In this document: positions 12,759 to 63,491 of the stretch, in pieces | Numbering within the stretch: the first letter of the stretch is position 1 | Layout: each line of letters opens with the position of its first letter | Assembly: GCF_004210295.1 (NCBI RefSeq) | Contig: NZ_SDAK01000001.1 | Span: 744,001-808,000, forward strand | DNA: 64,000 bases | Source: Lactococcus sp. S-13 | GTDB taxonomy: Bacteria > Bacillota > Bacilli > Lactobacillales > Streptococcaceae | Reading direction: 5' to 3' | Program-made: the position numbers and the translations under genes | Notes under the pieces: generated by a model | The model's database searches: none | What the model was told of the DNA's origin: nothing | The model's input: the letters and a program-made list of their open reading frames with translations, nothing else

Positions 12759-12825
12759 CGTCAGTAATTTTTCTTTGCGTCAGCATTTTAGTCAATGGCT
12801 AAATGATTACGTCAGTAAATTCTCT
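12759..12825. repeat. CTGACG repeat cluster, asp23-efp gap
   Basis: Three CGTCAG cores in the same orientation start at 12759, 12778 and 12810. The last is a full 16-mer, CGTCAGTAAATTCTCT (12810-12825). It belongs to the dispersed repeat family found throughout the window. Confidence 0.8.
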
Positions 12826-12843
12826 TGATCCAGCTGCTAAAAA

Positions 12844-13401
12844 TTAAGCACGTTTAAGATATTCACCTGTTTGTGTGTTGATTTCAAGTTTTGTACCTGC
12901 TTCAACGAAGTCTGGTACGTTCACAACAAGACCTGTTTCCATTGTTGCTGGTTTACCTGAACCTGTCACTGTTGCCCCTTTGATTGATGGTTGTGTTTCA
13001 GTGACTTCAAGAACAACTGTAGTTGGCAATTGGATACCAATTACTTCTGTACCGTAAAATTGGATTTTTACGTCAGTGTTTTCAAGGACGTAAAGGAGTT
13101 CGTCTTTGACTTGTTCTACTGGAATTTCGTATTGTTCGTAAGTTTCATTGTTCATGAAGTTAGCTGTGTCATCCATTGAATAAAGGTATTGAGCGGTTAC
13201 TGTTTCGATGACTGCTTGTTCAAATTTATCTTCAGGACGGTATGTGTCGTCGAAAGTTGAACCAGAGCGCACGTCTTTAAGTTTCATACGCATGATGGTA
13301 TTCCCTTTACCTGGTTTGTGGTGGCTTGCTTCCATCACGCGCAGGAGTTTGTCTCCGTTCAAAAATGTCATGCCTGATTTAAGATCTTTTGCTAAAACCA
13401 T
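12844..13401 (-). CDS. efp: Translation elongation factor P
   Basis: A 185-residue, three-domain EF-P that relieves ribosome stalling at polyproline stretches. The domain I loop HHKPGKGNT carries the lysine at the tip that is post-translationally modified in some lineages; the C-terminal signature near [16 protein letters not shown] is intact. Length is normal. It lies downstream of pepP and upstream of the asp23-like gene, a conserved Firmicute order, though repeat-bearing gaps separate it from both. Confidence 0.97.
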
Positions 13402-13454
13402 TGTTTATGTTTCTCCTAGTGTTTATAAATTTAGATATTCTGCCAATTTTTTTG

Positions 13455-13514
13455 AGAGAATTTGCTGACGTATTTTTATTTTCATGTTTTTATCATTCCG
13501 TCAGCATTTTCTCT
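13455..13514. repeat. Inverted pair of the 16-bp repeat, efp-pepP gap
   Basis: AGAGAATTTGCTGACG (13455-13470) faces CGTCAGCATTTTCTCT (13499-13514) across 28 bases, giving a near-perfect 16-bp inverted repeat. It can form a long hairpin upstream of efp and downstream of pepP. Confidence 0.85.
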
Positions 13515-13574
13515 GCACAAAAGTGCAAAATGACAGGATTTAACAATTCATTTTATCATAATTTAGAGGCTTTT

Positions 13575-14633
13575 TCAAATAACGATAAGTGCTTTTGGCG
13601 CTTTTGTCAAGACTTCACAGCCCTTATCAGTAATCAACAAGTCGTCCTCAATGCGCACGCCACCAAAATGCGGCAGATAAATGCCCGGCTCGTCAGTCAC
13701 CACCATATTTTCTTGCAAAATGCTTTCCGTCATGGCCTGACTAAAATAAGGTATCTCATGCACATCAAGTCCCAAACCATGTCCAATACCGTGAGAAAAA
13801 TAAGGCCCAAATCCTGCTTGCTCAATGACATCACGAGGAATTTTATCATAATCAGCATAAGTCATCCCAGCTTTTGCTTTATCAATCAGGGCTTGATTTG
13901 CCTTGTGGACAACTTCGTAAATTTCTTTCATTTTTTCATCGACATTCCCCACAAAAATGGTTCGCGTCATATCACTCGCGTAGCCTTCATAGTAGCAGCC
14001 AAAGTCCAGTGTGACCGCGTCAGAAAAATCAATGATTTTATTAGTGGCAACACCATGAGGCAAGGCGCTGCGTTTGCCTGAAGCAACAATTGTTTCAAAA
14101 GAAACGCCACTTGCTCCCAACGCTCGCATTTTAAAATCTAGAAAATTGGCGACTTCAATTTCGCTGCGCCCGGGTTCAATAAATTTGAGGGCTGCTTCAA
14201 AGGCTTCATCAGCAATTGCACAAGCTTTGCGAATTTTGCTTAACTCATTTTCATCCTTAAATTGGCGAAGTTCCAAAAGAAAATTATGCGTTGAAAAAAG
14301 TTCAATATGAGCTGTTGCGGCAGATAAATTTTTGAAAAAAGCATAGTCCACAGTGTCCTCAAATGCCATATTTTGAACTGCACAAGCTGTCGTTAATTCG
14401 GGCAACAAGCCAACCACATCACGTGTTTCCAGAATTTCAAAATCGCTGATTAGCTGGTGCGCCATTTCACTGTAACGACTATCCGTCATGAAAATATTTC
14501 GGTTTTTAGTCAATAAAATACTTCCAGCCGTCCCAGAAAATCCAGTCAGATAAAAAATATTTTTCATATCCGTAATCAAAAAACTATCAATGTGTTCAGC
14601 GGCCATTTTTGCTTTTAATTTTTCAATTCTCAT
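13575..14633 (-). CDS. pepP: Xaa-Pro aminopeptidase / dipeptidase, M24B family
   Basis: A 352-residue metallopeptidase that cleaves N-terminal Xaa-Pro bonds. It has the N-terminal creatinase-type domain and the pita-bread catalytic domain. Metal ligands are visible as the Asp pair in LDFGCYYEGYASDMTRT, His in SHGIGHGLGLDVHE, and Glu in VVTDEPGIYLP and GVRIEDDLL. The start MRIEKLKAKM (ATG 14631-14633) is supported by AGGAG seven bases upstream; a longer reading to 14702 overlaps the terminator of rsmA and is rejected. The position next to efp is conserved, fitting a link between proline handling and EF-P. PepQ-like naming is also possible. Confidence 0.92.
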   Translation of the reverse strand: MRIEKLKAKMAAEHIDSFLITDMKNIFYLTGFSGTAGSILLTKNRNIFMTDSRYSEMAHQLISDFEILETRDVVGLLPELTTACAVQNMAFEDTVDYAFFKNLSAATAHIELFSTHNFLLELRQFKDENELSKIRKACAIADEAFEAALKFIEPGRSEIEVANFLDFKMRALGASGVSFETIVASGKRSALPHGVATNKIIDFSDAVTLDFGCYYEGYASDMTRTIFVGNVDEKMKEIYEVVHKANQALIDKAKAGMTYADYDKIPRDVIEQAGFGPYFSHGIGHGLGLDVHEIPYFSQAMTESILQENMVVTDEPGIYLPHFGGVRIEDDLLITDKGCEVLTKAPKALIVI

Positions 14634-14659
14634 TTGTTTCTCCTTTTTCTCTATCATAA

Positions 14660-15613: not shown

Positions 15614-16180
15614 TTAGCTATAATGCTTCATAACCTGTTCAATTTGTTGTTTGGAAATTCCAAACATATTCAGTCTTTTTTCAATCTGTTTGCCATTCGC
15701 ATAACCAATTCGTAAGTGCTCGCAGAGATATTCTCGCCGCTTACGGCTGTCTGACGCCATAACTAAGCCAAATTTCATCAGCTCCGCTTGCGTCAAATTT
15801 ACTGACGAATTTTCCGTCAGCATTTTCTCTCCGCCCAAAACTTCCGTCAGTGCTTTTTTGAGGTCATCAAAATTGGCGTGTTCGATGCCCAACGAACCTT
15901 TACCTTTTGGACGGGCTTCAGAACGATTTAAAAAAGCGTGTTGGGCCTCGGGAACAGCTTGCATGATGATTTTGCGAATTCGTTCCCCTTGAAAATCAGG
16001 ATCTGTGAAGACAATTATTCCCCGTTTTTCCTGAAGTATTTTCAAGCGCTCCAAATCTGCATCATCAATAGATGACCCGCCCGTTTCATAAGTATCACAA
16101 TCAAAAAAACGTTTGAGATTGGCAGTATCATCACGCCCTTCAACCACAATAACTTTATCAATTTTTTGCTTTTCTGTCAT
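15614..16180 (-). CDS. rnmV: Ribonuclease M5 (5S rRNA maturation)
   Basis: A 188-residue Toprim nuclease that trims 5S rRNA precursors with the help of ribosomal protein L18. The Toprim motifs are VVEGRDD (residues ~11-17) and the acidic [12 protein letters not shown]. The C-terminal domain ends [17 protein letters not shown]. The linker between the two domains ([19 protein letters not shown]) is encoded by an inverted pair plus an extra copy of the dispersed repeat (15802-15850), an in-frame insertion. The gene starts 23 bases inside the preceding P-loop gene, so it is translationally coupled. Confidence 0.94.
15802..15850. repeat. CTGACG repeats inserted inside rnmV
   Basis: CTGACG (15802-15807) faces a full CGTCAGCATTTTCTCT (15815-15830), and another CGTCAG lies at 15845-15850, all inside the interdomain linker of rnmV without breaking the frame. 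Confidence 0.8.
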
Positions 16181-17907: not shown

Positions 17908-19806
17908 TTATTTGTATCTTTGTTTGACTTGCTTTGAAATCCAGAGACCTATCATCACAAATAATCCCGAAATCATAGCAATTACCGAAATTAAATCATT
18001 GTCTCCTGCATTGGGAAGATTGCCAAATTTTGATTGACCACTCGGAGCTATTTTTGAATCATTTAAAGTTGTAGCCAGTGTATCCTTTTTGTAAGTATAA
18101 TCTACTGTTTGAGGAGTATCGCTCAAAACCCCTTTTACATTTGTTGGTAATTTACTTTCATCCAGTGTGTAGCCATCTATTTTGAGTTGATACACATCAC
18201 TTGAAGCATCATAAGCATCTCCAACATTACCACTAATCAACTGAGGATCATGGATTTTATTCCCATTACTATCCAGATAATTTACCGTAACATCTGCTGC
18301 TTTTACAGGCTGTGCTACTTCAATGTAGTGGTAGTTGATACTTTGAGGAGTATCGCTCAAAACCCCTTTTACATTTGTTGGTAATTTACTTTCATCCAGT
18401 GTGTAACCATCTATTTTGAGTTGATACACATCACTTGAAGCGTCATAAGCATCTCCAACATTACCACTAATCAACTGAGGATCATGGATTTTATTCCCAT
18501 TACTATCCAGGTAATTTACCGTAACATCTGCTGCTTTTACAGGTTGACTTACGTCCAAAGGACGAGGTTGCCAGACATAAGTACCAACCATTGTAGCTCC
18601 ATCATAATAACTTTCTAATTCATTAGATGCAAAAACAAATGCACCATTTGGCTTTGTAGCTGTTCCTGTATCAATATTTTGCCACTTTCCAGTATATTCA
18701 CTTGTAATAGGAATATCAGGTAAACCCGTATCGTCAGGGAATCTGCAATTTGTGCCTAATTTTAACTCTCTAAGTTCGTCTAAAACATTGAACATTCCTT
18801 GGGTATCAACAACATTAGTCATATTGAAATTAGAAATGTCCAATGATACAAAAGAAGCACCTTGAAACATTGCGTACATAGTATGCACAGATACTGTATT
18901 GAATGAAGAGAGATCTACTGTTGTCAAACCGACTCCGTTAAACATCATCTCCATATTTGTAACATCAGACGTGTCCAAACCATTAACGTTTAGGCTTTTG
19001 AGCGAGTGCATCCCACTAAACATCGCTTGCATATTAGTTACACCAGTAGTGTTGAAAGTAGATATGTCCAGGCTTGTGAGACTCGACATCCCACTAAACA
19101 TTCCTTCCATATTTGTAACCCTGTTTGTGTCTAAATAGTTGAGACCTTGAATCTCTGTAACATTAGCTAATCCGTTAAACAAATAGCTAGTATCTATCCC
19201 GTCAGTAACAGGGCCTGTAAATACAATTTTTGTAATAATATCTGCATATTGAGTCCACGGTCCCTGTAGGTATATTGCATCATTATCTGGAAAAGTACCA
19301 GTATTAATAGTTAATATTCCATCATCAGTAATTTCCCAGGGAGCTGTTCCATATTGCCCGCTTTGGACAACAGTTGCTAGTGGGGTTGCTGTTGCAAAGG
19401 TGGTTACTTGTGGTGAAGAACCACTGATGCTATCGCCATTCTCCATAATCTGGGAATCACTACTCGCTGTTGCTCCCCCCTCCCCTGATATATCTAAATC
19501 TAGTTGGGAGTCCTGAACATCTTCAGTCGACTGAAGAGAAGCGTTAGCAAGCTCAGTATCATCTCCTGTTGAAACTGGGTCTATTTGATCTGTATCATCT
19601 CCTGTCGAAACGGGGTTTACTTGACCAGAATTATCCTCTATCCCCTGAATGACATTAATAAGCTCAGGAGTTGTTATTTCATTTACTTCCGAGATTTGCT
19701 GTTCTGATTGATTTGTGTCAACCGTACTTGCTGCTGCAACATTTGCTAAAGTTGATACGCAAATCATCCCCACCATGCTTTGACTTAATACTTTTTTGAT
19801 TTTCAT
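17908..19806 (-). CDS. Wall-anchored surface protein with BspA-type repeats and two MucBP domains
   Basis: A 632-residue secreted protein. An N-terminal signal peptide (MKIKKVLSQSMVGMICVSTL, cleavage near VAAA) is followed by a Ser/Thr/Asp/Gln-rich stretch with a repeated VNPVSTGDDTDQ-type unit (~60-90). A BspA/DUF285 region (~190-380) carries repeats of the form TNMxxMFxGMxSLxSLDIS. Two nearly identical 78-residue MucBP domains (~430-580) come next. The C-terminus has LPNAG, a hydrophobic segment and a KQVKQRYK tail. MucBP and DUF285 domains are found in adhesins of gut and oral bacteria, so binding to mucin or another host or plant surface is likely. The sorting motif LPNAG departs from LPxTG. 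The gene is flanked by unusually long AT-rich gaps, which suits an acquired or fast-evolving gene. Confidence 0.88.
   Translation of the reverse strand: MKIKKVLSQSMVGMICVSTLANVAAASTVDTNQSEQQISEVNEITTPELINVIQGIEDNSGQVNPVSTGDDTDQIDPVSTGDDTELANASLQSTEDVQDSQLDLDISGEGGATASSDSQIMENGDSISGSSPQVTTFATATPLATVVQSGQYGTAPWEITDDGILTINTGTFPDNDAIYLQGPWTQYADIITKIVFTGPVTDGIDTSYLFNGLANVTEIQGLNYLDTNRVTNMEGMFSGMSSLTSLDISTFNTTGVTNMQAMFSGMHSLKSLNVNGLDTSDVTNMEMMFNGVGLTTVDLSSFNTVSVHTMYAMFQGASFVSLDISNFNMTNVVDTQGMFNVLDELRELKLGTNCRFPDDTGLPDIPITSEYTGKWQNIDTGTATKPNGAFVFASNELESYYDGATMVGTYVWQPRPLDVSQPVKAADVTVNYLDSNGNKIHDPQLISGNVGDAYDASSDVYQLKIDGYTLDESKLPTNVKGVLSDTPQSINYHYIEVAQPVKAADVTVNYLDSNGNKIHDPQLISGNVGDAYDASSDVYQLKIDGYTLDESKLPTNVKGVLSDTPQTVDYTYKKDTLATTLNDSKIAPSGQSKFGNLPNAGDNDLISVIAMISGLFVMIGLWISKQVKQRYK
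18108..18546 (-). repeat. Tandem 234-bp-period repeat encoding two MucBP domains
   Basis: The segments 18108-18312 and 18342-18546 are almost base-for-base identical, with an offset of 234 bp (78 codons). Near identity at the DNA level, including silent positions, points to a recent duplication or ongoing gene conversion. Confidence 0.9.
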
Positions 19807-20300
19807 AATATTTCCTTTAACGTGTATTTCTGATGTTTATGAATATATTAACAACAATCTATTCTTAAAATTTAAAGTTTCCATATAGTTTAATCATTCA
19901 TCTTTAAGTGAATTATCACCTGCCTTTCTTTTTCAAAGCCTAACTAGAGTTCAATTTTACTAAATTATCTGCCCCCTTTCTCATTCATTTGACATCTTTC
20001 TAATCATCTTCTCATCTCACACTTATTGTTTTATCATTTAATAAAATAGTCCACAATAAAAAAGGTCTTTAACGACATAAAAATTTCCCTGAAAATAGAG
20101 CCATTAAATTTTATTTGTTTTGTCCCTTCTGTTCTAGCCTTATCGATTCCTGATTCCTATTCTTTATAATTATTTTTTTAATTCAAAAACTATTTAAGCC
20201 TATATAAATAGTTTGTCGTTCTTGGTACATAGTATAAAAAATATAACTTATAACCCTAAAATTAAGACATACGAAGTAAACTGAACCACAAGAACCAATA
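19807..20300. other. Long AT-rich non-coding gap between the two surface-protein genes
   Basis: Roughly 500 bases without a convincing ORF, RNA gene or CTGACG repeat. The part next to 19806 must carry the ribosome-binding site (TTAAAGGAAAT) and the promoter of the MucBP protein gene. The rest holds only AT-rich sequence. Confidence 0.5.
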
Positions 20301-20303
20301 AAA

Positions 20304-20333
20304 AAATGAGATATTACTATCTCATTTCAATTT
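20304..20333 (-). terminator. Terminator after the Cna-B adhesin gene
   Basis: ATGAGATA and TATCTCAT (8 bp, perfect) close a 4-base loop, and a run of T residues follows on the minus strand. Confidence 0.75.
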
Positions 20334-20445
20334 TTTAATTTTTAGGCAATACATCACGGCTAAGTTTTTTATTTTTGCCTACTACGATAGACCTAAAACA
20401 AAACTACCACTAGCTCTCACAAAAGCTTTTACGTATAAAGTCCTG

Positions 20446-22638
20446 TTACAACTTATGTCTCTTCACAAAAATATAAGTTGCCAACAAACTCAAGAAAATA
20501 CCACTTACTAAAGCGTATCCTCCATTCCCATCATTAGTTTTAGGAAGTAATTTTTTCTCTAGCGCTGGTTTTCTTTTTGTATCGGTCTTAGTAGGTTTCA
20601 CTACCTGTTTTCGAACAGACGATTTTCCACCACTCCTCTTATCAGTATGTGGTGTTTTTACCGTATCTACTTTACCAGTAGCTTCTCCTTGAGTGAGCGG
20701 AGTAGCTGGAATGCTAATTGGAACATAGGTGTTGATAAGATTATATCCTTCAACTTTTGTTTGATACCCTTCTACCGCTTTTTCTCCGATTGAATAAGCA
20801 ATCGCTCTTCCATCTTTATATTTAGGTAAGCCATTAAACTGATAGTGCCAGTTTTCTTGATCTGAAACAATCAATGATTTGATTGGCTTGCCATTCTCTA
20901 AAAGATTGACCGTGATATGCTCAGGCCGTTTCCCATATTTATTTTGCTCATCTTTCCATATCTTGTCTCCAACAATTGATACTTGTTCGATATTAGTATT
21001 GATGACCGAGAGACCATTTTCAAATTTTGAATACCCAAGAGGGACACTATCATTTCCTTTTGCATCAACCTCTTGAACGCTAAATTTATATCTACCACCT
21101 TGATTGTCATATTCTTCCAGATCAGACCAATTCACCTCTGTGATCCCATCGGGTAAAGTCTTTAGCGGAGCTCCTGGAACTTCTTCTTTAATTCCATTTA
21201 CATTTGTTCGATATAATTTAAAATAGGTTGTAGGTCTTGGTGCTATCCCACCTTGCCAAACTTTATTAGCTTTAATATCAGTTGTTTTCTTCGGGTTATA
21301 GATTGTTAAATCTACACCCTTAGTGTCGGAAGCATTGACAGTAAATTTTTGTTCAGGTGATGTTAAAGGATCAAAATTTATCCAATCTGGCGCAAGAATT
21401 TCTTGTAAAAGATAATCTCCTACTAGTAAACCTTTTATCCCTGTTTCACCATTAGCATCAGAAGTCAAAGTAATTACAGGCTGGCCTTGGATAGGTTGCC
21501 CGTCAGCCCTTTTCAAAGAAAAATTCACATTGGGAATTCCAATCTCTGTCCCCTTAATTCTTTTTACAATCTTTAGTTGTCCTTTAACAGTTCCTTGAAC
21601 TCCACCAGCGGCATTAATGTTTTGAACAGAGTGGTCAAAACTCTTTCCTGACACTGCTGGTTGATTATGCTCTTGGTACCAAGCTTGTGATTTATTATCA
21701 AAGCTTACTTGTTGTTCATTTTCAATAGTTGTTTTGTACTGAACACCAAAATGGCGATATCTCACAACTGAAGATGGAATACTCAATTCTATAGTATTAT
21801 TCACTGGTAAATAAACAAAAGATAAGCCAGGATAGTCTTTTAACAGGTTCGATAACTCATTCTCACCCCGATAAATTTTAGTACCATTTGTATCTTCTAC
21901 GCTAATCACAAAGGTGGACGGATCAAGTCGTTGCCCTGATTGAATTTGATCTTTGATAATTACTCCACTATCAACTTCAACACGACCAGAATTTATGTTT
22001 AAAAACCAACGAACGTGCTGTGTATCTTGAGGAAGCATATCTCCCGTTTTATAATAAAATACAGACGAAGAAGTTACAGATGCAGGTTTTGTTACATTGA
22101 TTTTAGCTGTTTTCCCTCCCGAGCTAACAGCTAAACTTCCTATGTTTTCAGCATCTCCTGCAGTCAGATTCCTAACTTGAATATCAAATTCTCCCCACCC
22201 TTTTACATCATCTAAATTTTTAATATTATCATTAAATACGACCTGAGCTCCATCTGTCCTAATAGTCATTATTCCAACGTCTATACCCGAAACTTGTAAA
22301 TTGACTGTTTTCGCATAACCCTGAGCAAAAACAGCGCCAATACTCGGCCAACTAACATTTAAATAATCACCAGGTTGAATATTTTTTGCTTGTTCATCAA
22401 ATTCAAATCTAACAGTCACCTTATCACCATCTCTAATATCTGTTGGTGATACCGTTAATGCAACAACATCCTCACTTACATCACTACCCGTTGCTGCACC
22501 TCCCTTGATTGAAGGCCACACAAAAACTGTTATTGCTAAAAACAATAATGCAATTAAAAATCTTTTCTTTTTCCCCAATTTAACTCTCCATAATCCTTTT
22601 TTTGAAATTTTGACAAATTTCTCAAACAATTCTATCAC
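20446..22638 (-). CDS. Wall-anchored adhesin with Ig-like adhesion domains and Cna-B repeats
   Basis: A 730-residue surface protein. A long basic N-region with a membrane segment (FLIALLFLAITVFVWPS, residues ~27-43) acts as signal peptide. Residues ~55-350 look like the two-part Ig-like adhesion domain of the SdrG/Cna type (DIRDGDKVTVRFEF, then YKTGDMLPQDTQHVRWFLNIN). Three Cna-B-like stalk domains follow: KLKIVKRIKG-type (~360-450), KANKVWQGGIAPRPTTYFKLY (~455-555) and VGDKIWKDEQNKYGKRPEHITVNLL (~556-645). A basic Lys/Thr-rich linker and an LPKTN sorting signal with hydrophobic tail (FVKRHKL) end the protein. Cna-B domains usually carry intramolecular isopeptide bonds. The sorting motif ends in Asn instead of Gly. 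Ligand unknown. Confidence 0.86.
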   Translation of the reverse strand: MIELFEKFVKISKKGLWRVKLGKKKRFLIALLFLAITVFVWPSIKGGAATGSDVSEDVVALTVSPTDIRDGDKVTVRFEFDEQAKNIQPGDYLNVSWPSIGAVFAQGYAKTVNLQVSGIDVGIMTIRTDGAQVVFNDNIKNLDDVKGWGEFDIQVRNLTAGDAENIGSLAVSSGGKTAKINVTKPASVTSSSVFYYKTGDMLPQDTQHVRWFLNINSGRVEVDSGVIIKDQIQSGQRLDPSTFVISVEDTNGTKIYRGENELSNLLKDYPGLSFVYLPVNNTIELSIPSSVVRYRHFGVQYKTTIENEQQVSFDNKSQAWYQEHNQPAVSGKSFDHSVQNINAAGGVQGTVKGQLKIVKRIKGTEIGIPNVNFSLKRADGQPIQGQPVITLTSDANGETGIKGLLVGDYLLQEILAPDWINFDPLTSPEQKFTVNASDTKGVDLTIYNPKKTTDIKANKVWQGGIAPRPTTYFKLYRTNVNGIKEEVPGAPLKTLPDGITEVNWSDLEEYDNQGGRYKFSVQEVDAKGNDSVPLGYSKFENGLSVINTNIEQVSIVGDKIWKDEQNKYGKRPEHITVNLLENGKPIKSLIVSDQENWHYQFNGLPKYKDGRAIAYSIGEKAVEGYQTKVEGYNLINTYVPISIPATPLTQGEATGKVDTVKTPHTDKRSGGKSSVRKQVVKPTKTDTKRKPALEKKLLPKTNDGNGGYALVSGIFLSLLATYIFVKRHKL

Positions 22639-36300: not shown

Positions 36301-36808
36301 CCACGCGCATTCCGCGTCCGCCGCCTCCAAGGGCAGCTTTAATCATGACTGGATAGCCGTAAGTTTTGGCAAATTCAAGGGCTCCCTCGATGTCGACTGC
36401 TCCATTTGTTCCTGGAATTCCTGGAACTTGCGCGGCATCAGCTGCTGCTTTGGCTTTGATTTTATCCCCAAAGATATCCAAGTGATGTAAATCAGGCCCA
36501 ACAAAAACCAAGCCAGCTGCACGAACTTTTGTTGCAAATTCCAGATTTTCAGACAAAAGTCCATAGCCTGGGTGAATGGCGTCAGCGCCTGATTCAAGTG
36601 CAACACGAATGATGTCATCAATATCTAAGTAAGCATCAATTGGCTTTTTGCCGTGCCCAATGAGGTAGGATTCATCTGCTTTGAAACGGTGAACTGAATA
36701 TTCATCTTCACTTGCATAGACTGCAACAGTTGATAGACCGAGCTCATTACAAGCACGGAAGACACGGACAGCGATTTCGCCACGATTGGCAACGAGCAAT
36801 TTTTTCAC
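33395..36808 (-). CDS. pyc: Pyruvate carboxylase
   Basis: A 1137-residue biotin enzyme making oxaloacetate from pyruvate, bicarbonate and ATP, used for aspartate and citrate synthesis. The N-terminal biotin carboxylase domain (~1-450) has the ATP loop KAALGGGGRGMRVA and VQRRNQKVIEIAPA. The central carboxyltransferase domain (~520-830) has DTTLRDAHQSLLATR and AEMWGGATFDVAYRF. The biotinyl domain has the biotin-accepting Lys in VTEAMKMETT near residue 1105. Length is normal. RBS AAAGGAG precedes the ATG. It lies downstream of ftsW and upstream of the gltA operon, to which it supplies substrate. Confidence 0.98.
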   Translation of the reverse strand: MKKLLVANRGEIAVRVFRACNELGLSTVAVYASEDEYSVHRFKADESYLIGHGKKPIDAYLDIDDIIRVALESGADAIHPGYGLLSENLEFATKVRAAGLVFVGPDLHHLDIFGDKIKAKAAADAAQVPGIPGTNGAVDIEGALEFAKTYGYPVMIKAALGGGGRGMRVARNDDEMRDGYARAKSEAIGAFGSGEIYVEKYIENPKHIEVQILGDSHGNIVHLYERDCSVQRRNQKVIEIAPAVGLSKAFRNEICEAAVKLCKNVGYINAGTVEFLVKDDKFYFIEVNPRVQVEHTITELITGVDIVQAQILIAQGKDLHTEIGIPAQNEIPLLGSAIQCRITTEDPENGFLPDTGKIDTYRSPGGFGIRLDVGNAYAGYEVTPYFDSLLVKVCTFANEFSDSVRKMDRVLHEFRIRGVKTNIPFLINVITNENFTSGQATTTFIDNTPSLFNFPRLRDRGTKTLHYLSTITVNGFPGIENTEKRHFEEPRQPQLSIEKKRTAKNILDEEGADAVVEFVKNTKEVLLTDTTLRDAHQSLLATRLRLQDMKGIAQAIDQGLPELFSAEMWGGATFDVAYRFLNESPWYRLRKLRKLMPNTMFQMLFRGSNAVGYQNYPDNVIEEFIRVAAREGIDVFRIFDSLNWLPQMEKSIQAVRDNGKIAEATICYTGDILDLSRPKYNLKYYKDLAKELEATGAHILAVKDMAGVLKPQAAYRLISELKDTVDLPIHLHTHDTSGNGIITYSGATQAGVDIIDVATASLAGGTSQPSMQSIYYALEHGPRHAAINVKNAEQIDHYWEDVRKYYAPFEAGITSPQTEVYTHEMPGGQYTNLKAQAAAVGLGHRFDEIKQMYSKVNMMFGDIIKVTPSSKVVGDMALFMIQNDLTEEDVYERGTELNFPESVVSFFRGDLGQPEGGFPERLQKIIVKDKSILTDRPGLYAEPVDFEEVKTELAKKIGYQPGDHEVISYLMYPQVFLDYQKMQQEFGAVTLIDTPTFLHGMRLNEKIEVQIEKGKTLSIRLDEIGEPDLAGNRVLFFNLNGQRREVVINDKSVQTQVVAKRKAETGNPNHIGATMPGSVLEVLVKSGDKVQKGQALMVTEAMKMETTLEAPFDCEIVKIHVIKGESIQTQDLLIEIN

Positions 36809-38383: not shown

Positions 38384-38422
38384 CTGACGGATTGATTTTT
38401 GATTTACGTCAGCATTTTCTCT
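38384..38422. repeat. Inverted CTGACG repeat pair downstream of rpmG
   Basis: CTGACG (38384-38389) faces a full CGTCAGCATTTTCTCT (38407-38422), separated by 17 bases. It lies between the rpmG stop and the terminator. Confidence 0.8.
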
Positions 38423-38428: not shown

Positions 38429-38575
38429 TTAGATTTCGCGGTGCAAGGTGACGGCGCGTTCTTTGGGACAAAATTTCATGGTTTCTACTTTTTCAGGATG
38501 AGTAGCTTTATTTTTGCTGCTGATGTAATTTTTATTTCCACAGGAGCTGCAAGCAAGGGTAATTTTTATTCTCAT
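38429..38575 (-). CDS. rpmG: 50S ribosomal protein L33
   Basis: A 48-residue ribosomal protein, too short for usual ORF cut-offs. It starts [17 protein letters not shown] and ends [10 protein letters not shown]. The first Cys pair CSSC and a later Cys (KFCPKE) show the zinc-binding lineage with one ligand replaced, as in the RpmGB type. Its ATG overlaps the stop of the efflux-pump gene (ATGA), so it depends on translation of that gene. The coaE-pmrA-rpmG order is shared with streptococci. Confidence 0.95.
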
Positions 38576-39780
38576 GATAGGATGCTCCGTTTTCGTAAGA
38601 ATTTACGGAAATTGATAAATGACCAGATGATGTTAATCACGACAAACAAGCTGGTACCAACAATCGCCGCACGATAACTGATGTAGCCAGCAATGGCTGA
38701 GCCGACGAGTGGGCCTGTAACCATGCCCAAATTTGAACTCATTTGTGCGTAAGCAAAAATTCGGCTGACGCCTTCTTTCGGAGTTATCTTGGAAAGAAGA
38801 GAATTTACTGACGGCATCAAAGCCCCTGTGCCAAAGCCCAGAAGGAAGCGCAAAATACCAAGTTGCAAGGGACTTTGAACCAGCGCCATTGGCAAATAGA
38901 TTACAAAAGTGAATACCAACCCAATCAAAATCAGGCGGTGAGAGCCGTATTTATCGCCTAAGCGTCCTAAAAAGCTTGAAGAGAGCATCGCCGATAAGCC
39001 GACGGCCGAGACAATCAATCCTGAAATAAACATCAGATTTTCTGTGTTATTTGTCAATGTTTTGATGTACAAAGTGACAAACGGCTCAATAGACTGAGAA
39101 GTGATTTGAATAATGAATGTTGTCACCAACAAGCCAACCAAAATCTGTTTGTTACTCACTTTATTGATGATTTCTCTACTGGAGAGCATTTTATCTTTGG
39201 GAACAGGTTCAAAATGTTCATGCACAAAGAGAATTGTCAGCAAAGTCGTCAAAGCGAGCAAAGCGCCCACAATCAAAAAAACATTCGCCATACCAAACCA
39301 TTGGGCAAGTAAACCGCCAAGTGACGGCCCTATTAAGCTTCCCGAAACCATTGCCGTAGCAAGCGTTCCTAGGGCATAGCCCGATTTGTCTTTCGGTGCT
39401 TGCGAGGCAATCATAGCCGTTGAATTTGGGATGTAGCCTGAGAAAAAGCCCATCAATAAACGCAAGCCGAGTAACCACCAGACATTCGGGACAAAGGCCA
39501 AGCCGCCCATCGTCAAAGTCATTACAACACTAGCGCGAACCATCATTACTTTTCGACCATGTTCATCAGCTAAGCGTCCCCAAATTGGAGCAACCAAGCC
39601 TGAAGCCAGAGCGGGCAAGGAAAAAGCTAACCCTGAATAGAGCTCAACATTTCCCCCGCGAACCCCTAGGCCCTGAATATACAAAGGCAGAAAAGGCATC
39701 ACCAATGAAAAAGATGAACCGACAAAAAAGCAGCCAATCCATGTAATAAATAAATTTCTTTTCCAGTTAATTGTATTCGT
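38572..39780 (-). CDS. pmrA: MFS multidrug efflux transporter, PmrA-like, with probable ACG start
   Basis: A 12-segment drug:proton antiporter. MFS motif A is visible as [13 protein letters not shown] and motif C-like sequence as [10 protein letters not shown]. PmrA of streptococci exports fluoroquinolones and dyes. The frame stays open upstream of the TTG at 39705 and encodes 25 more residues, including [15 protein letters not shown], which completes the first membrane segment. No ATG, GTG or TTG lies there. The best start is ACG at 39778-39780, nine bases after AGAGGG; translation from the TTG would cut into helix 1. Coordinates given use ACG. It lies 11 bases after coaE and overlaps rpmG by four. 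Confidence 0.85.
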
Positions 39781-39791: not shown

Positions 39792-40517
39792 CTATTTCTC
39801 TCTATTTACCGCTAGCAAAGCCTCTTCAATCTGCTTTTTGAGCATTTCTAAACTTCCCGAATTATCCAAAATTCGGTCAGCAAATTTTCTCTTTTGCGCA
39901 AGTGGCATCTGCGCGTCAATTCGCTTTTTCGCTTCTTCTTTTGTAAAATGATTCCGCGCCATCAAGCGCTCCAATTGAATTTCTTCAGTGACAGTGACCA
40001 ACCAAATCTCATCAAATCCGTCATAGCCATATTCTAACAGCAAAGGGATATCCATAAAAAGCAGTTGATTTACTGACGGAAGCTTGCGATATATCTTTGA
40101 GCCAGAGAAATTACTGACGGAATTTACATCAGCAATTTCTCTAGGCTTTTCGTCAGTATTTTCTCTAAAATCACGCTCAGCATTTACGTCAGCATTTTCT
40201 CTACCCAAAAATTGATCGCGTCTATGGTACAGTTCCTTACGAATAATCTCATCCTGTAAAAGCGACAGTTTTTCACGTTGCTCTCGATTTTCAAAAACCA
40301 AAGCCCCCAACTTCGCCCGATTTAATTGACCTGTTTCATCAATAAAATCAGAACCAAAGTGCTTTAAAATCGCCTCATAAAGTCTGCCTTGAGGAGCTTG
40401 CAATTCACGCACAACCTTATCCGCATCAATCACCTGATAACCCAGAGAAATCAAAAAATCAACCACCGTTGATTTTCCACTCGCAATTCCACCAGTCAAT
40501 CCAATAACCTTTTTCAT
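39792..40517 (-). CDS. coaE: Dephospho-CoA kinase with repeat-derived insertion
   Basis: The last enzyme of coenzyme A synthesis, phosphorylating the 3'-OH of dephospho-CoA. The P-loop GLTGGIASGKST is at residues ~6-17; the lid and CoA regions (MDIPLLLEYGYDGFDEIWLVTV, RIDAQMPLAQKRKFAD) are intact. At 241 residues it is about 40 longer than the ~200 typical of the family. The surplus (RENADVNAERDF, RENTDEKP, REIADVNSVSNF in succession, around residues 107-145) is encoded by copies of the dispersed CTGACG repeat (40073-40202) inserted in frame before the MDIPLLLE strand. Function is probably kept because all motifs remain. Confidence 0.94.
   Translation of the reverse strand: MKKVIGLTGGIASGKSTVVDFLISLGYQVIDADKVVRELQAPQGRLYEAILKHFGSDFIDETGQLNRAKLGALVFENREQREKLSLLQDEIIRKELYHRRDQFLGRENADVNAERDFRENTDEKPREIADVNSVSNFSGSKIYRKLPSVNQLLFMDIPLLLEYGYDGFDEIWLVTVTEEIQLERLMARNHFTKEEAKKRIDAQMPLAQKRKFADRILDNSGSLEMLKKQIEEALLAVNREK
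40073..40202. repeat. Cluster of CTGACG repeats inside coaE
   Basis: CTGACG at 40073, AGAGAAATTACTGACG (40104-40119), a one-mismatch copy CATCAGCAATTTCTCT (40127-40142), CGTCAGTATTTTCTCT (40151-40166) and CGTCAGCATTTTCTCT (40187-40202). Opposite orientations face each other, yet the reading frame stays open. Confidence 0.9.
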
Positions 40518-48594: not shown

Positions 48595-51048
48595 TCAAAT
48601 AATTTGTGTGATTTTAATTTTTTTATTAGAAGTTCCAATAGAGATTTGATCGCCAGCCTTGATTTCACCAGCGAGCAATTGTTCACTCAAGAGGTCTTCA
48701 ACCTCTCTTTGTAAAGCTTTACGCAAGGGTCTTGCGCCATATTCTGCATCGAATCCAACCTCAGCAATAAGTTTTGTCGCTGCTGAAGTAAGTTTAATCT
48801 GAATATTTTGTTCTGCTAAACGTTTGATGAGAGATTTACTCATAATTTTCACAATTTGCTCAATTTCTTGCGCGTCTAATGAGTGGAAAACAATTGTTTC
48901 GTCAATCCGATTGAGGAACTCGGGACGATAATGGCGTTTAAGTTCTTCCAGGATTCTTGATTTCATAGCTGCATAGTCCGCCGTGATATCTTTCGCGCCA
49001 AAACCAACAGTTTTATCATCCCGAAGTGCTGTTGCACCAAGGTTTGAAGTCATAATGATAATAGTATTTCTAAAGTCAACTTTGCGTCCTTTAGTATCCG
49101 TCACAAAACCATCATCAAGAATTTGTAACATAATATTAAAGACATCGGGGTGAGCTTTTTCGACTTCATCAAGAAGAACTACTGAGTAGGGTTTGTTACG
49201 AACGCGCTCGGTTAACTGTCCTCCTTCATCGTAACCGACATATCCTGGAGGTGCTCCAATCAAACGTGAAGTGGAATGTTTTTCCATAAATTCACTCATA
49301 TCGACCCGAATCATATTATCTTCGCTACCAAAAACACTATCGGCAAGTGCTTTTGCAAGTTCAGTTTTACCTACTCCGGTAGGGCCTAAAAACATAAATG
49401 AACCCATTGGACGACGGTTATCAGAAACACCTGAACGAGCTCGTCGAATTGCTCTTGATACTGCTGAAATTGCTTCTTCTTGCCCGACGACACGTTTGTG
49501 CAATTCTTTTTCCAAATTGATCAAACGATCACTTTCTGATTTAGTCATTTGGGTAATTGGAATACCTGTCAATGTGGAAGCAACAGCAATGACGGCTTGA
49601 TCGGTCACTTCTTGTGCTTTATCTGAGCGAACGGAAAATTTAGCAAGTTTATCGGCCAGTTTCTTGGCTACTTTTTCTTTTTCTCGCGATTTTTTGATGT
49701 CCAATTGAACGACAGCATCGGATAAGTCCTTTTGGGCCTTTTCCAATTCTTCTTCGAGTTCGATGCGTTTTGTTTCTTGATTTTTCACTGAAATTTTGAC
49801 AGAAGCTGCTGCCTCATCTAATAAATCAATTGCTTTATCTGGTAGACGACGGCTGGTCATGTAGCGAATGCTTAACGTCACTGCACTTTTGATTGCTTCA
49901 TCAGTAAAGAGAACGTGGTGATAGTCTTCAAATTTTTCACGTAATCCTTGCAAGATAGCAATCGCTTCGTCTGCACTTGGTTCATCCACATTGATTCTTG
50001 CCAAGCGACGTTCTAAAGCTTCGTCTTTTTCAATATATTTTTGATATTCGTGATAGGTTGTCGCACCGACCATTTGGAAATCACCACGCGCAAGAGCGGG
50101 TTTTAAAATATTTGCTGCGTCATTGACAGAATCCATTCCGCCACCAGCACCAATGATGGTATGAAGTTCGTCAATAAAGATAATCACGTTGGGATCGCTG
50201 CTCACTTCTTCAACAATCGCTGTCAAACGATCTTCAAATTCACCACGGAATTTGGTTCCTGCGACAACTGTGGCCATATTGAGTGCCATGATTCGACTAT
50301 TCATCAAACCGATTGGAACTTGACCTTTAACTATTCTTTGAGCGAAGCCTTCAATAATTGCTGATTTCCCAACTCCCGGTTCACCAACCAAAACAGGATT
50401 ATTTTTAGTTCGGCGACTGAGAATGTGAATCAAACGATCAACCTCAGCTTCACGTCCAATCATTGGATCAAGCTTTCCTGCTCGGGCTGCTTCGGTCAAA
50501 TCTGACGAAACTGAATCCAAAGTTGGTGTCGTACTTGTCGCTGATACTCGCTTGGAGAGATTACGCTTGGACATTGGTGTGACTGCCTTTTTCGTTTCAG
50601 GTGTCTTCAGACCAGTGCGTTTTTCAAGCTCTTTGCGCAGAGAAACAATATTGATTTTTTGTAATTTCAATAATTGTAGGGCAAAGCCATCTTCGATTTG
50701 AAGCAATGCATATAATAAATGCTCTGTTCCCAAAATTTTTGCTTCGTTGTGGAGGGCTAAAACTCTTGCTAATTCAAGAACTTCTTTGGCTCTTGGTGAG
50801 AATTCCAAATCTTTGCGTGCAGTGCTGACATGACTGGATAAGTCTTCCAAATCAATCAATAAATCTGCTGAATCAACATTTGCTCCAGCAAGCAAGCTGT
50901 AAGCAATTGAGCCTGAAACGGTGGTCATTGCTGCTAAAAGATGGGCGCTCTCAATAGCACCATATTGGTACTGATAAGCGTATTCTGTTGCTTTTTCTAA
51001 AATTCGTTCTATGGTTGAGGTATAATTTAATTTTTCAAATTTCATCAT
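48595..51048 (-). CDS. clpC: ATP-dependent Clp protease ATP-binding subunit ClpC
   Basis: An ~817-residue Hsp100 unfoldase. Clp_N repeats (residues ~10-145), AAA module 1 with GEPGVGKSA and IFIDELHTIIGAG, a middle coiled-coil domain, and AAA module 2 with GPTGVGKTE and VVLLDEVEKAHPD are all visible. It feeds substrates to ClpP. The start overlaps the ctsR stop: GTG at 51049-51051 and ATGs at 51046-51048 and 51043-51045 are possible; I use the first ATG. It is cotranscribed with its repressor ctsR. The mcsA/mcsB genes that sit between them in Bacillus are absent. Confidence 0.96.
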   Translation of the reverse strand: MMKFEKLNYTSTIERILEKATEYAYQYQYGAIESAHLLAAMTTVSGSIAYSLLAGANVDSADLLIDLEDLSSHVSTARKDLEFSPRAKEVLELARVLALHNEAKILGTEHLLYALLQIEDGFALQLLKLQKINIVSLRKELEKRTGLKTPETKKAVTPMSKRNLSKRVSATSTTPTLDSVSSDLTEAARAGKLDPMIGREAEVDRLIHILSRRTKNNPVLVGEPGVGKSAIIEGFAQRIVKGQVPIGLMNSRIMALNMATVVAGTKFRGEFEDRLTAIVEEVSSDPNVIIFIDELHTIIGAGGGMDSVNDAANILKPALARGDFQMVGATTYHEYQKYIEKDEALERRLARINVDEPSADEAIAILQGLREKFEDYHHVLFTDEAIKSAVTLSIRYMTSRRLPDKAIDLLDEAAASVKISVKNQETKRIELEEELEKAQKDLSDAVVQLDIKKSREKEKVAKKLADKLAKFSVRSDKAQEVTDQAVIAVASTLTGIPITQMTKSESDRLINLEKELHKRVVGQEEAISAVSRAIRRARSGVSDNRRPMGSFMFLGPTGVGKTELAKALADSVFGSEDNMIRVDMSEFMEKHSTSRLIGAPPGYVGYDEGGQLTERVRNKPYSVVLLDEVEKAHPDVFNIMLQILDDGFVTDTKGRKVDFRNTIIIMTSNLGATALRDDKTVGFGAKDITADYAAMKSRILEELKRHYRPEFLNRIDETIVFHSLDAQEIEQIVKIMSKSLIKRLAEQNIQIKLTSAATKLIAEVGFDAEYGARPLRKALQREVEDLLSEQLLAGEIKAGDQISIGTSNKKIKITQII

Positions 51049-51493
51049 CACGATCCAATCTGTTTAAGATACTTTTCATCATTGTAGCACGTGTAAAGGG
51101 GCTAATAATTCCGTCAGTAATCACTAACAAAAGTAAATTTCCTTCACGTTCCGTCAGTACTTTCTCGTCAAAAAGAAGCTGAATGATGTCATGAGCCGCC
51201 TTGCTTGAGAGATTGGCTGGAATTTTTTGATACAAAGCGGTCAGAAATTCATGGCGCGCTGAATATTGATACTTCACAATCTTAATATATCCGCCACCGC
51301 CACGCTTAGATTCAACGTCAAAACCTTTTGATGCTGTAAACCTTGTCTTAATCACATAATTGATTTGGCTAGGCACTACATCAAATTGATTTGCCAAATC
51401 TGCCCGTTTGATTTCGATTTCTTGTGCTTCTTCCAACAACTGTCTCAGGTAAGCCTCAATAATATCAGATGTATTTTTTTGAGCTGGCATCAT
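51035..51493 (-). CDS. ctsR: Transcriptional repressor of class III heat-shock genes
   Basis: A 152-residue winged-helix repressor. The N-terminal DNA-binding domain contains NTSDIIEAYLRQLL and the beta-wing RGGGGYIKI, whose glycines act as an intrinsic heat sensor. The C-terminal part carries LFDEKVLTEREGNLLLLV. It represses its own operon and clpP through CtsR boxes, both present in this window. Two CGTCAG cores (51112, 51152) fall in conserved C-terminal codons and may be coincidental. Confidence 0.96.
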   Translation of the reverse strand: MMPAQKNTSDIIEAYLRQLLEEAQEIEIKRADLANQFDVVPSQINYVIKTRFTASKGFDVESKRGGGGYIKIVKYQYSARHEFLTALYQKIPANLSSKAAHDIIQLLFDEKVLTEREGNLLLLVITDGIISPFTRATMMKSILNRLDRDDEI

Positions 51494-51585: not shown

Positions 51586-51635
51586 AGAGAATTTACTGAC
51601 GTATTTTTTCGTCAGTAAAATAAAAAAACCGTCAG
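51586..51635. repeat. CTGACG hairpin and extra copy in the ctsR-greA gap
   Basis: AGAGAATTTACTGACG (51586-51601) faces CGTCAGTAAA (51610-51619), giving a perfect 10-bp stem TTTACTGACG with an 8-base loop. A third core is at 51630-51635. The structure sits where the greA terminator is expected. Confidence 0.88.
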
Positions 51636-51661
51636 TAACGGCTTCTTTATTCTTTTTCAAA

Positions 51662-55417: not shown

Positions 55418-55520
55418 CTGACGAAAAAGCGTCAGCGCTCCTTTTTTTCTATAAGTTTACTTTCGTCAGCATTTTCTCTGAGAGAATTTACTGACGGATT
55501 TCTTTTTTCAAATGCGTCAG
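55418..55520. repeat. Cluster of five CTGACG repeat cores, recJ-apt gap
   Basis: Cores start at 55418 (CTGACG), 55430 (CGTCAG), 55464 (full CGTCAGCATTTTCTCT, 55464-55479), AGAGAATTTACTGACG (55481-55496) and 55515 (CGTCAG). The first two face each other over a 6-base loop; the third and fourth are full copies placed back to back. Confidence 0.9.
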
Positions 55521-55541
55521 TATTTTGGTCGCGAAGTAAGC

Positions 55542-57877: not shown

Positions 57878-58057
57878 CTGACGAATTTTTTATGACGCAA
57901 AAGGAGAAAAAACTCCAACAGCTTCCACATTTTTCTGAAAGAAAAAGAGTAAAATTTGGTGTGAAACAATTACGTCAGCATTTTCTCTGACCGTTTTTGT
58001 GTGAAACAATTACGTCAGCATTTTCTCTGGCAATTTTTGTGCAAATAATAGCGTCAG
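57878..58057. repeat. CTGACG repeats with 40-bp tandem unit downstream of a 36-aa ORF
   Basis: One CTGACG core at 57878-57883. A 40-bp unit beginning GTGTGAAACAATTACGTCAG is present at about 57960-57999 and 58000-58039, with a degenerate third copy from 58040 (core 58052-58057). Each complete unit holds CGTCAGCATTTTCTCT (57973-57988, 58013-58028). Apart from these, the 57771-58092 gap shows no gene. Confidence 0.88.
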
Positions 58058-58092
58058 CAGCTGAAATTGTCTTTTATCTTGAATTTTTAAGA

Positions 58093-61496: not shown

Positions 61497-61616
61497 CTGA
61501 CGGAAATTAGCGACAATAACTTTTACTAAAAGACAAATTTTTTCATTTCGTCAGTAAATTAGGAGTTTTCGTCAGTATTTTTTCTATCTGGATGAGAATC
61601 CGTCAGCAAATTCTCT
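61497..61616. repeat. Cluster of CTGACG repeats upstream of the SPFH gene
   Basis: CTGACG at 61497-61502, then CGTCAG at 61549 and 61570, and a full CGTCAGCAAATTCTCT at 61601-61616. Confidence 0.85.
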
Positions 61617-61663
61617 AGCCGATATTTCTCCCAATTCAACCCTTTAGTAATCGTTTCCATCAT
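61559..61663 (-). CDS. Possible 34-aa ORF partly encoded by repeats
   Basis: Begins MMETITKGLNWEKYRLENLL and ends RKNTDENS. The C-terminal half is encoded by two members of the CTGACG family (LTDS, NTDENS). The ribosome-binding site is only moderate (GAAAGTGG). It lies between a 222-aa unknown gene and the SPFH gene. It may be real or an accident of open sequence; I know no family. Confidence 0.3.
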   Translation of the reverse strand: MMETITKGLNWEKYRLENLLTDSHPDRKNTDENS

Positions 61664-61707
61664 TTTACCACTTTCAAACTTGTAAAGCAATAAATTTTCT
61701 ATATTTT

Positions 61708-62376
61708 TCAGAAATGTTTAACAATATAAACAAAATGCTTCTGACCATCTCGACCATAAAGGAGAGGTTTTAGGAAACCGATTTTGCTTGCTTGCGTCAG
61801 TAAATCCTCGATGTTATAGCCAGACAAGCGCATGAAATCAGGATTCTCTGACAATTCCGTCAGTGGCGAAAGTTCTTCAACCCACTCAAAATCACTCGTG
61901 AAGTCAGCTGGTTTCATTGTCACTTGTCCGTCATTTTCTTCTAACAAATAATGTGGGAAAATCTGAGCCAATTCAAAAAGTAATTCAGCCGTGATTTTCA
62001 CCGGAAATTCGCTAAAGATGACAGCCTCTCCAGCCGTATTCTTAAAGCAAAAACCAAAAGATTTCCCTGACAGATTTAACCGAACAAAACGGAAATTCTC
62101 TGTCCCCACTTTACCTTCCAAATGAAAATCTGGTCGTTCTTGAAAAAGCTCCAACGCTTCTGAGAGTTCTAAAAAATAATCCGTAGCATCCTTTGGCGAC
62201 CGTTTTTGATAAAGTTCCGCAAAGTAAGCATTCAAGACAGATGCTGGCGGAGTAACCAAGAGGCGTTTGTCCTTTGTTTCGCTCAAATTTGCCAGTCGAT
62301 TTTCCAGAAAAACACGGTCTTGCCCCATGTATCCGCCGTATTTCAGCGCCAATTCAACCCATTTTTCATCATTCAT
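61708..62376 (-). CDS. Conserved-looking hypothetical protein, 222 aa
   Basis: Not recognised. A soluble, acidic protein with no signal or membrane segment. Segments such as LLVTPPASVLNAYFAELYQKRSPKDATDYFLELSEAL in the first third and FGFCFKNTAGEAVIFSEFPVKITAELLFELAQIFP in the middle look like folded alpha/beta sequence, and codon use is like its neighbours, so it is probably a real gene. It lies downstream of miaA in the same direction, 110 bases away. Confidence 0.75.
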   Translation of the reverse strand: MNDEKWVELALKYGGYMGQDRVFLENRLANLSETKDKRLLVTPPASVLNAYFAELYQKRSPKDATDYFLELSEALELFQERPDFHLEGKVGTENFRFVRLNLSGKSFGFCFKNTAGEAVIFSEFPVKITAELLFELAQIFPHYLLEENDGQVTMKPADFTSDFEWVEELSPLTELSENPDFMRLSGYNIEDLLTQASKIGFLKPLLYGRDGQKHFVYIVKHF

Positions 62377-62483
62377 TTCTTATTTCCCTCTTACTTTTTT
62401 CTAAAATTTTTCTGGATAATGCCATCAGAGACTTGTAAAATCCTGTTTTCAATCTTTTTCATTATAACATTTTTAGACAAAGC

Positions 62484-62489
62484 CGTCAG
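62484..62489. repeat. Single CTGACG core at the miaA 3' end
   Basis: CGTCAG overlaps the last codons of miaA and its stop, without the ATTTTCTCT extension. It is probably a degenerate member of the dispersed family. Confidence 0.4.
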
Positions 62490-63370
62490 CCCAAAAAATT
62501 TTTGACTTTTTCCAAAATTTCTTGAGGATAATTTGCATCAAAAACATCAAAAAAAGGAACATCCATCCGGTTTTTAAACCAGGTCAATTGCCTTTTGGCA
62601 TACCGTCTTGAATTGCGCTTCACCAGCTCAACCGCCTCGTCCAAACTCATTTCGCCCGAAAAATAAGGGAAAAATTCTTTGTAGCCAATGCCTTTGGCTG
62701 CCTGAACAGTTGGATTTTGCTCAAATAACTCCTGTGCTTCACGCAACAAGCCTTCTGTCATCATCTGATCCACGCGCTGATTGATGCGCTGATAAAGCAG
62801 TTTTCGCTCAGCATTCAATCCAATCATGCAAAAATCGTAAGCCGAGCCTTTATTTTCCTCTGCCGAGCCAAATTTTTCACGCTCCAAAGCACGCATCGCT
62901 CTCCGGCGATTCAGTTCAGGAATTTCTAGTCCGCTCGCTTTGACTTGCTCAAAAAGCGCTTCATCGCTCAAAAGTGCCAATTGTTCACGCAAAATGAGCA
63001 TTTCCTCATGATTTTCTTGCCCGCCCAGATGGTAACCTTCCACCAGCGATTGAATATACAGACCCGTCCCCCCAACAATAATCGGCAATTTCTCCCGCTT
63101 GTGCATCTCTTCAATCCAATAATTTGCCTCACTGACAAAATCATGAGCCGAAAAGTTTTCCGTTCGCTCACGAACGTCAATCAAACGATGAACAGCCAGT
63201 TTCTGCTCAGCTTGCGTCACTTTCGCTGTTCCAATATCCAGCCCTCGATAAACCTGCTGCGAATCACCAGAAATAATTTCCCCATTGAATTTTTGGGCCA
63301 ATTCAATTCCTAAGGCGGTTTTTCCCACAGCTGTCGGCCCTACAATCACCAAAACTTTATTTTTCGTCAT
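62486..63370 (-). CDS. miaA: tRNA dimethylallyltransferase
   Basis: A 294-residue enzyme adding the isopentenyl group to A37 of tRNAs reading UNN codons. P-loop [10 protein letters not shown] at residues ~11-20; [31 protein letters not shown], and the C-terminal [16 protein letters not shown] are conserved. Length is normal. A full CTGACG hairpin lies just upstream of its start. Confidence 0.97.
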
Positions 63371-63457
63371 TTATTTTTCTCTACCTATTTTTTCAGGAAC
63401 TCTAAACTCTATTATTTCAGATTTGGTCAGCAAATTCAAGCTTTTACCCAACGAAAA

Positions 63458-63491
63458 AATGCTGACGAAAATTTCCGTCAGCATTTTCTCT
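63458..63491. repeat. Perfect CTGACG hairpin between the YitT-like gene and miaA
   Basis: AAAATGCTGACG and CGTCAGCATTTT make a perfect 12-bp stem around an 8-base loop; the right arm is a full CGTCAGCATTTTCTCT (63476-63491). Its position just after the stop of the YitT-like gene suits a terminator. Confidence 0.9.

Follow-up and report, generated by a model that had tools for sequence, protein, structure and literature searches.

The 64,000-nucleotide stretch of the Lactococcus sp. S-13 chromosome analyzed here (C1:744001-808000 of a 2.27-Mb genome in four contigs; hereafter the window) carries many copies of a 16-bp motif that reads from AGAGAA to CTGACG. The motif is real and genome-wide, and it is the species dialect of a repetitive motif known from Lactococcus lactis. 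Neighboring copies keep a helical phase of ~10.5 bp, an observation that looks new. On balance, and with modest confidence, we favor the explanation that the copies are putative duplex-DNA sites for a chromosomal protein or complex that would have co-evolved with the spelling of its sites in part of the Lactococcus tree, with arrays of sites on one face of the helix.

All 16 full-length copies counted in the window by an earlier note on this DNA were found at their positions: eight exact copies of CGTCAGCATTTTCTCT, four of the TAAATT form, two of the CAAATT form, and one each of the TATTTT and TAATTT forms. Allowing up to three mismatches, the window contains 21 matches against 0.90 expected (100 shuffles, largest 3). 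Across the whole S-13 genome (G000), there are 216 exact copies of CGTCAGCATTTTCTCT (149 forward, 67 reverse) and 473 of the pattern CGTCAGYAWWTTCTCT (289 and 184), and both reversed patterns have a count of 0. Because of these genome-wide counts, the motif is neither local nor due to chance, and the recurrence claimed by the note extends to the whole genome; with the excess over shuffles in the window, they rule out local duplication as well as chance. Alignment of 112 strict copies from 450.5 kb of the genome yielded the consensus AGAGAAWWTRCTGACG-N-A-A-W-T, in which only the flanks and the variable places are informative because the copies were chosen with the strict pattern. On the 3' side of that pattern, position +17 is A in 95% of the copies, +18 is A in 80%, and +20 is T in 76%; outside the ~21-bp consensus, the aligned copies show no conservation. 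The consensus of a single copy is non-palindromic. Among the matches listed for two relatives, G006 and G003, are several inverted copies that overlap each other (TCTGTCAGTACTGACAGA) and form a palindromic variant.

A similar motif has been described in L. lactis, which the earlier note had missed; its interpretation, left between an uptake-like sequence and REP- or MITE-like spread, is partly supported. In strain IL1403, according to the part of PMC2526093 available to us, gtcagtaa/ttactgac lies downstream of 19% of the genes and is nearly missing from phage and transposon genes; it is called there a highly repetitive motif involved in mRNA destabilization, citing Mrazek et al. 2002 and Redon et al. 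2005. Shared with the S-13 motif are the ACTGAC core, the many copies, the position downstream of genes (here with approximate gene calls), and the scarcity in foreign DNA (here, outside the chromosome's own DNA). The S-13 motif differs in its long form AGAGAAWWTRCTGACG, in its commonest version, which carries TGCTGACG, and in being oriented; phasing goes unmentioned in the same part of PMC2526093. In L. lactis MG1363, TGTCAGT lies upstream of genes in pairs whose spacing varies, with spacers listed from 5 to 39 bp (PMC3547956, Table 2). The core is the same, but in the accessible part of that paper it is the motif of one expression cluster and is given no helical reading. For the L. lactis motif reported in 2002 and cited in PMC2526093 (as far as the accessible part of that paper goes), the open-licence literature searched offers no settled function.

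The spelling of the motif varies within the genus. Eight of the 18 genus genomes are rich in TACTGACRGA (91 to 721 copies); G003 has 35, the remaining nine have at most 10, and none of 178 sampled genomes from nine other genera of the family exceeds 14, a background level. The relatives include the motif-rich L. cremoris NBRC 100676 (G002) and the motif-poor L. nasutitermitis (G010), L. petauri (G011), L. garvieae (G009), and L. ileimucosae (G007). The over-represented 9-mers contain mostly CTGACA(G) in the relatives and CTGACG in S-13, and the long form AGAGAAWWTRCTGACG has a single copy among the other 17 genus genomes. The consensus that Mrazek gave for the L. lactis motif in 2002 reportedly reads WWNTTACTGACRR. 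This form occurs 357 times in S-13, against 13 for its reverse, and 943 times in G008, 694 in G002, 328 in G016, 271 in G001, and 269 in G012; the 216 exact CGTCAGCATTTTCTCT copies read TGCTGACG and are therefore not covered by it, in contrast to the 357 others. A candidate for a further dialect is TTTTGACAG/CTGTCAAAA, with 53 copies against 5.5 expected in samples of the L. nasutitermitis genome (L066 among them), yet no hexamer is clearly phased there; the same sample may contain a repeat array, to judge from words present in 22 copies.

Core distances in direct pairs of the S-13 genome cluster at 19-22, 30-32, and 39-42 bp, and those in inverted pairs at 13-15 and 24-26 bp for the (+-) class and 25-28 bp for the (-+) class. 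Phase was measured as Rayleigh Z at 10.5 bp over adjacent direct pairs 9-75 bp apart, with pairs that share homologous flanks (tandem) dropped. Z was 53.3 in S-13 (n = 131; 37 dropped), 26.9 in G012 (n = 66; 8 dropped), 10.8 in G008 (n = 59; 2 dropped), 10.3 in G002 (n = 18), and 3.9 in both G001 (n = 17) and G013 (n = 9). The 201 control hexamers (300 drawn) had a mean Z of 1.64; the top one was a piece of the motif, the rest reached at most 7.1, and those clearly outside the motif up to ~6.3. Inverted pairs gave Z values of 44.7 and 12.4 in S-13 and 34.1 and 19.0 in G012, which partly reflect one favorite spacing per species, so that direct pairs are the main evidence of phase. In five genomes, a single face offset (3.75-5.0) accounts for both inverted classes, and tandem duplication alone would not be expected to make phased inverted pairs. 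At 76-130 bp, phase is present in S-13 and G012, weak in G008, and absent in G001 and G002.

A screen of all hexamers with enough pairs, in which a word and its complement were counted apart, placed pieces of the motif on top in five genomes: they are the top 12 of 1067 hexamers in S-13, the top 6 of 737 in G008, the top 12 of 707 in G012, the top 4 of 268 in G002, and the top 4 of 242 in G001. These five phased genomes show about three spellings. Motif pieces were not on top in G016, G013, and G006, and in the motif-poor G003, G004, G007, G009, and G010, no hexamer exceeded 6.1.

Placement was assessed in 770.5 kb of the chromosome (36%). Genes came from a simple home-made caller, so that counts by gap type are approximate; they also omit intergenic copies that are not flanked by called genes (5 of 122 strict copies, 9 of 259 cores). 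Although genes make up 82% of the sampled sequence, 122 of the 159 strict copies lie outside them and 37 inside, in agreement with the earlier description of the copies as mostly intergenic. Divergent gaps of S-13 hold 0.14 copies per kb, compared with 1.05 in codirectional and 1.11 in convergent gaps; in G008, the respective densities are 0.46, 1.27, and 3.78. Read from AGAGAA to CTGACG, strict copies in codirectional gaps are in the sense orientation in 71 cases and antisense in 26 (n = 97), and those in convergent gaps lie on the leading strand in 15 cases and on the lagging strand in 3; for the looser 8-base core, the corresponding counts are 129 and 75, and 27 and 16. This one-way lean of the long form and the scarcity in divergent gaps also look new. 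Replication and transcription are hard to part as the basis of orientation because only four strict copies (three leading, one lagging; four and two when strand is set stretch by stretch) lie between lagging-strand genes. The relatives lack the sense bias (48:52 in G008, 53:58 in G012, 9:10 in G001, and 12:15 in G002), which rules out orientation as a genus-wide trait. The three smaller contigs contained no strict copies and three short cores in 66.6 of their 156.7 kb, against ~13.7 strict copies expected at chromosomal density. We took these contigs as plasmids; the best plasmid matches of the one stretch compared are Lactococcus, mostly dairy, but no plasmid record covers 80% of it.

The earlier note's description of the copies as often forming inverted pairs is only half correct: among neighbors within 9-75 bp in S-13, there are 86 (+-) and 35 (-+) pairs but 168 direct ones. 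At most 172 of 633 cores belong to (+-) pairs within 75 bp; thus, most copies are not in tight inverted pairs, contrary to what would be expected of terminators. The cores form 83 singles, 51 doubles, 43 triples, and 26 larger clusters (chance in-gene cores included). Over 37 stretches, their density shows no trend with distance from the GC-skew switch at 1.65 Mb (r = 0.04). The sign of the skew on C1 flips near 0.28 and near 1.65 Mb, so that the two arms measure ~1.37 and 0.75 Mb, which could be uneven replichores or a matter of assembly. Inside genes, a run of 42-bp repeats within a 663-aa frame (L048:17969-18120) holds one copy per repeat, so that the motif is translated there as part of a 14-aa repeat, and three strict copies 135 bp apart in one 470-aa frame (L120:2956-3241) suggest a motif-bearing 45-aa protein repeat.

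The motif recurs in the same orthologous gaps and inside coaE of motif-rich relatives, in each species' own spelling, and mostly not in motif-poor genomes, a pattern that likewise looks new. Own gaps of at least 30 bp were compared (88 of 289 syntenic pairs were dropped as shorter), with G003 (35 copies) grouped with the motif-poor genomes. Against motif-rich relatives, 126 syntenic gaps had the motif in both genomes in 29 cases, in S-13 only in 7, in the relative only in 16, and in neither in 74 (Fisher 5.5e-11). These rows are not independent because they stem from 104 own gaps; counted by distinct own gaps, the contrast is 25/29 versus 14/75. By the shorter gap length, p was 1e-4 at 30-100 bp, 1e-3 at 100-200 bp, 0.01 at 200-400 bp, and 0.33 above 400 bp (n = 6), with four rows outside these classes. 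Against motif-poor genomes, 75 gaps gave 1, 14, 3, and 57 in the same order. Where the own gap has the motif, the motif-poor gap is shorter (150 versus 269 bp, n = 15); where it lacks the motif, the motif-poor gap is longer (167 versus 133 bp).

For coaE, 14 of 17 fetched loci were read (G013, G014, and G017 were dropped). The S-13 gene has an in-frame insert at aa 105-150 relative to most relatives, with five motif copies inside. In G002 and G008, a shorter insert carries two copies exactly 41 bp apart, three of the four reading TGTCAGT and one (G002) CGTCAGT. The insert of G016 has one copy; G001 and G012 lack an insert and carry two overlapping inverted copies at its place. Neither insert nor copies occur at that place in G003, G004, G005, G006, G007, G009, and G011, and the motif-poor G010 has a partial insert with one TTTACTGACAGAA. 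Further coaE cores outside the insert place are found in G001, G002, G008, and G012. On the coaE tree, in which 3 of 11 inner branches are starred, the motif-rich label needs two changes (3 of 500 shuffles were as low), which may be gains or losses. Of the 11 S-13 genes that carry copies and have a sampled motif-rich orthologue, nine are matched in at least one relative by a core no more than 15 aa from the mapped place. By alignment, 11 of 17 such sites are occupied in motif-rich genomes (5.3 expected) and 3 of 16 in motif-poor ones (1.2 expected), all three in G010.

Taken together, the phasing, the dialects, and the conservation of sites between orthologous loci suggest a reader of duplex DNA and make this idea directly testable. 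The sites would form small arrays on one helix face, mostly after genes and between convergent genes, and the putative protein would read them as duplex DNA, with cooperative binding or DNA wrapping; its work would concern the ends of transcription units. In S-13, the site would have gained the 5' AGAGAA extension and come to favor one orientation, that of the sense or of the leading strand. We regard as finely balanced the broader claim that part of Lactococcus has an undescribed chromosome-wide system comprising hundreds of phased duplex-DNA sites at gene ends, a putative reader of species-changing specificity, respelling in place even in coaE, and decay where the system was lost. Such decay of sites is suggested by the remnants in motif-poor L. 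nasutitermitis. Phasing, in-place respelling, and coaE inserts had no earlier report in the literature searched, which was limited to open-licence papers and makes this a weak negative. A topological or nucleoid role, by analogy with the gyrase-bound BIME elements of Escherichia coli, is possible but doubtful, and the client is a guess. According to the accessible part of PMC6379681, E. coli gyrase binds BIME-2, has a binding motif with phased 10-bp composition, and shows enrichment on the downstream side of operons with high transcription.

The alternative suggested by the earlier note, a DNA uptake or drive sequence, supposes that competent cells prefer DNA with the motif, that molecular drive multiplies it, that dialects follow the receptor, and that inverted pairs double as terminators. 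The dialects at orthologous places, the lack of strict copies in the 66.6 kb of smaller contigs, the copies within genes, and a ComEC-family match in 17 of 18 genus genomes are consistent with this idea. However, ComEC is also present in motif-poor genomes, and its frame is short in the motif-rich G002 (473 aa) and the motif-poor G004 (386 aa), compared with 733-758 aa in the other 15. Even genomic spacing is typical of DNA uptake sequences; the spacing checked here, in answer to the note, was not even (dispersion index of clusters per 20 kb 1.26, 1.58, and 1.06 in three genomes), many copies stand in arrays, and uptake alone does not predict helical phase. The uptake sequence of Neisseriaceae also has dialects, with related spellings in related species (PMC3630211, in the part available); the Lactococcus motif differs in its arrays, helical phasing, scarcity in divergent gaps, and lack of a known receptor. 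We consider an uptake sequence unlikely but a serious alternative. Either way, the result would be of use: the motif would represent a new chromosome-organizing or gyrase-site system of a food bacterium or else be an uptake-type sequence belonging to a Gram-positive genus.

Less probable still is an RNA element, that is, a 3'-untranslated region element or part of a terminator that sets mRNA stability or the end of transcription. It would suit the position after genes, the sense bias in S-13, the tight inverted pairs that could fold, the one copy in a terminator-like stretch, and the mRNA destabilization cited in the accessible part of PMC2526093. It does not explain the absence of sense bias in four relatives, the small share of cores in (+-) pairs, or the phase of direct pairs, which a role in RNA would not need. 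Spread of a miniature mobile element or a REP/REPIN-like repeat by a transposase, the other possibility raised in the note, we judge very improbable. Own residues at in-gene motifs are often unaligned with orthologues (mean 44% over 50 cases, against 6% overall), but 21 of these cases are coaE, without which the mean is ~26% (by hand); the shorter gaps in motif-poor relatives and some tandem duplications could also reflect insertion. In contrast, no Y1_Tnp match was found in the S-13 genome, and the 18 genus genomes had only one broken (G006) and one fragmentary (G009) match; Y1/RAYT-driven spread was rejected on this basis. The absence of shared flanks among the 112 aligned copies leaves no long unit with terminal repeats of the MITE kind, and most tested sites are shared with motif-rich relatives. 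Phage-borne copies are an improbable source: the 55 viral stretches found each had a single exact 16-mer. Like REP/BIME elements of E. coli, the motif is an extragenic repeat in arrays; unlike them, it has a non-palindromic unit and no RAYT-type transposase was found, and its sites recur at orthologous places.

The copies within the window and their two host genes are listed in the table; five of the 16 strict copies (15815, 38798, 40104, 40151, and 40187) are within genes.

Motif copies and host genes in the window (positions count from the first nucleotide of the window)
Feature	Position	Strand	Details
Three copies in the same orientation	12759..12825	-	12759 divergent form, 12778 core, 12810 full 16-mer
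Two inverted full 16-mers	13455..13514	.	13455 and 13499; in a gap
Toprim/DUF4093 protein	15614..16180	-	Host gene of the 15751..15860 cluster
Four in-gene cores	15751..15860	.	Full 16-mer at 15815
Inverted pair	38384..38422	.	Exact 16-mer at 38407; intergenic
Two cores	38765..38813	+	Full 16-mer at 38798; antisense in 3' part of gene 38572-39705
coaE, dephospho-CoA kinase	39792..40517	-	Host gene of the 40073..40202 array
Five copies inside coaE	40073..40202	.	Full 16-mers 40104, 40151, 40187; core 40073; degenerate 40127
Two cores 40 bp apart	51112..51167	-	51152 degenerate 16-mer; 3' part of 152-aa reading frame 51035-51493
Full 16-mer and two further cores	51586..51645	.	Full 16-mer at 51586; in a gap
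Core cluster, both orientations	55418..55530	.	Full 16-mers 55464 and 55481; intergenic
Cluster of exact 16-mers and further cores	57878..58067	.	Exact 16-mers 57973 and 58013; intergenic
Three cores, spacing 21 and 31 bp	61549..61616	-	Full 16-mer at 61601; intergenic
Tight inverted pair	63452..63491	.	Exact 16-mer at 63476; intergenic

The first three copies, with core spacings of 19 and 32 bp, lie in a gap flanked by two minus-strand genes. The orthologous gap of the next pair carries ACTGACA/TGTCAGT copies in G016. The gene at 15614..16180 probably encodes ribonuclease M5 (rnmV), a name based on its domains; its G016 orthologue has TACTGACAG at aa 119, next to aa 116 for the own copy, and the G004 and G011 orthologues have no core at that place in a mostly unaligned region. 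The gene at 38572-39705 is transporter-like by eye, and a core lies near the same place in its G008 orthologue, with none in those of G002 and G012. The gap at 51586..51645 has motif copies in the orthologous gap of G008, and its last core is within a terminator-like stretch (by eye). The copies at 57973 and 58013, 40 bp apart with an identical 12-bp flank, are therefore a tandem duplication. The only RNA families in the window are two tRNAs, so that no known RNA family is behind the motif.

In G012 (C1:1233221-1236624) and G001 (C1:116611-120014), the match to the window protein at 33395-36808 (1137 aa; by eye a pyruvate carboxylase) falls into two open frames, broken at different places, possibly through sequencing error. 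The earlier note had also described a surface-protein region as free of copies, which holds for the stretch 17908-22638. This stretch, without strict copies, encodes two adjacent surface-type proteins, one with MucBP/DUF285 and the other with Cna_B/Collagen_bind/SpaA domains, and adjoins an ArsC-family gene.

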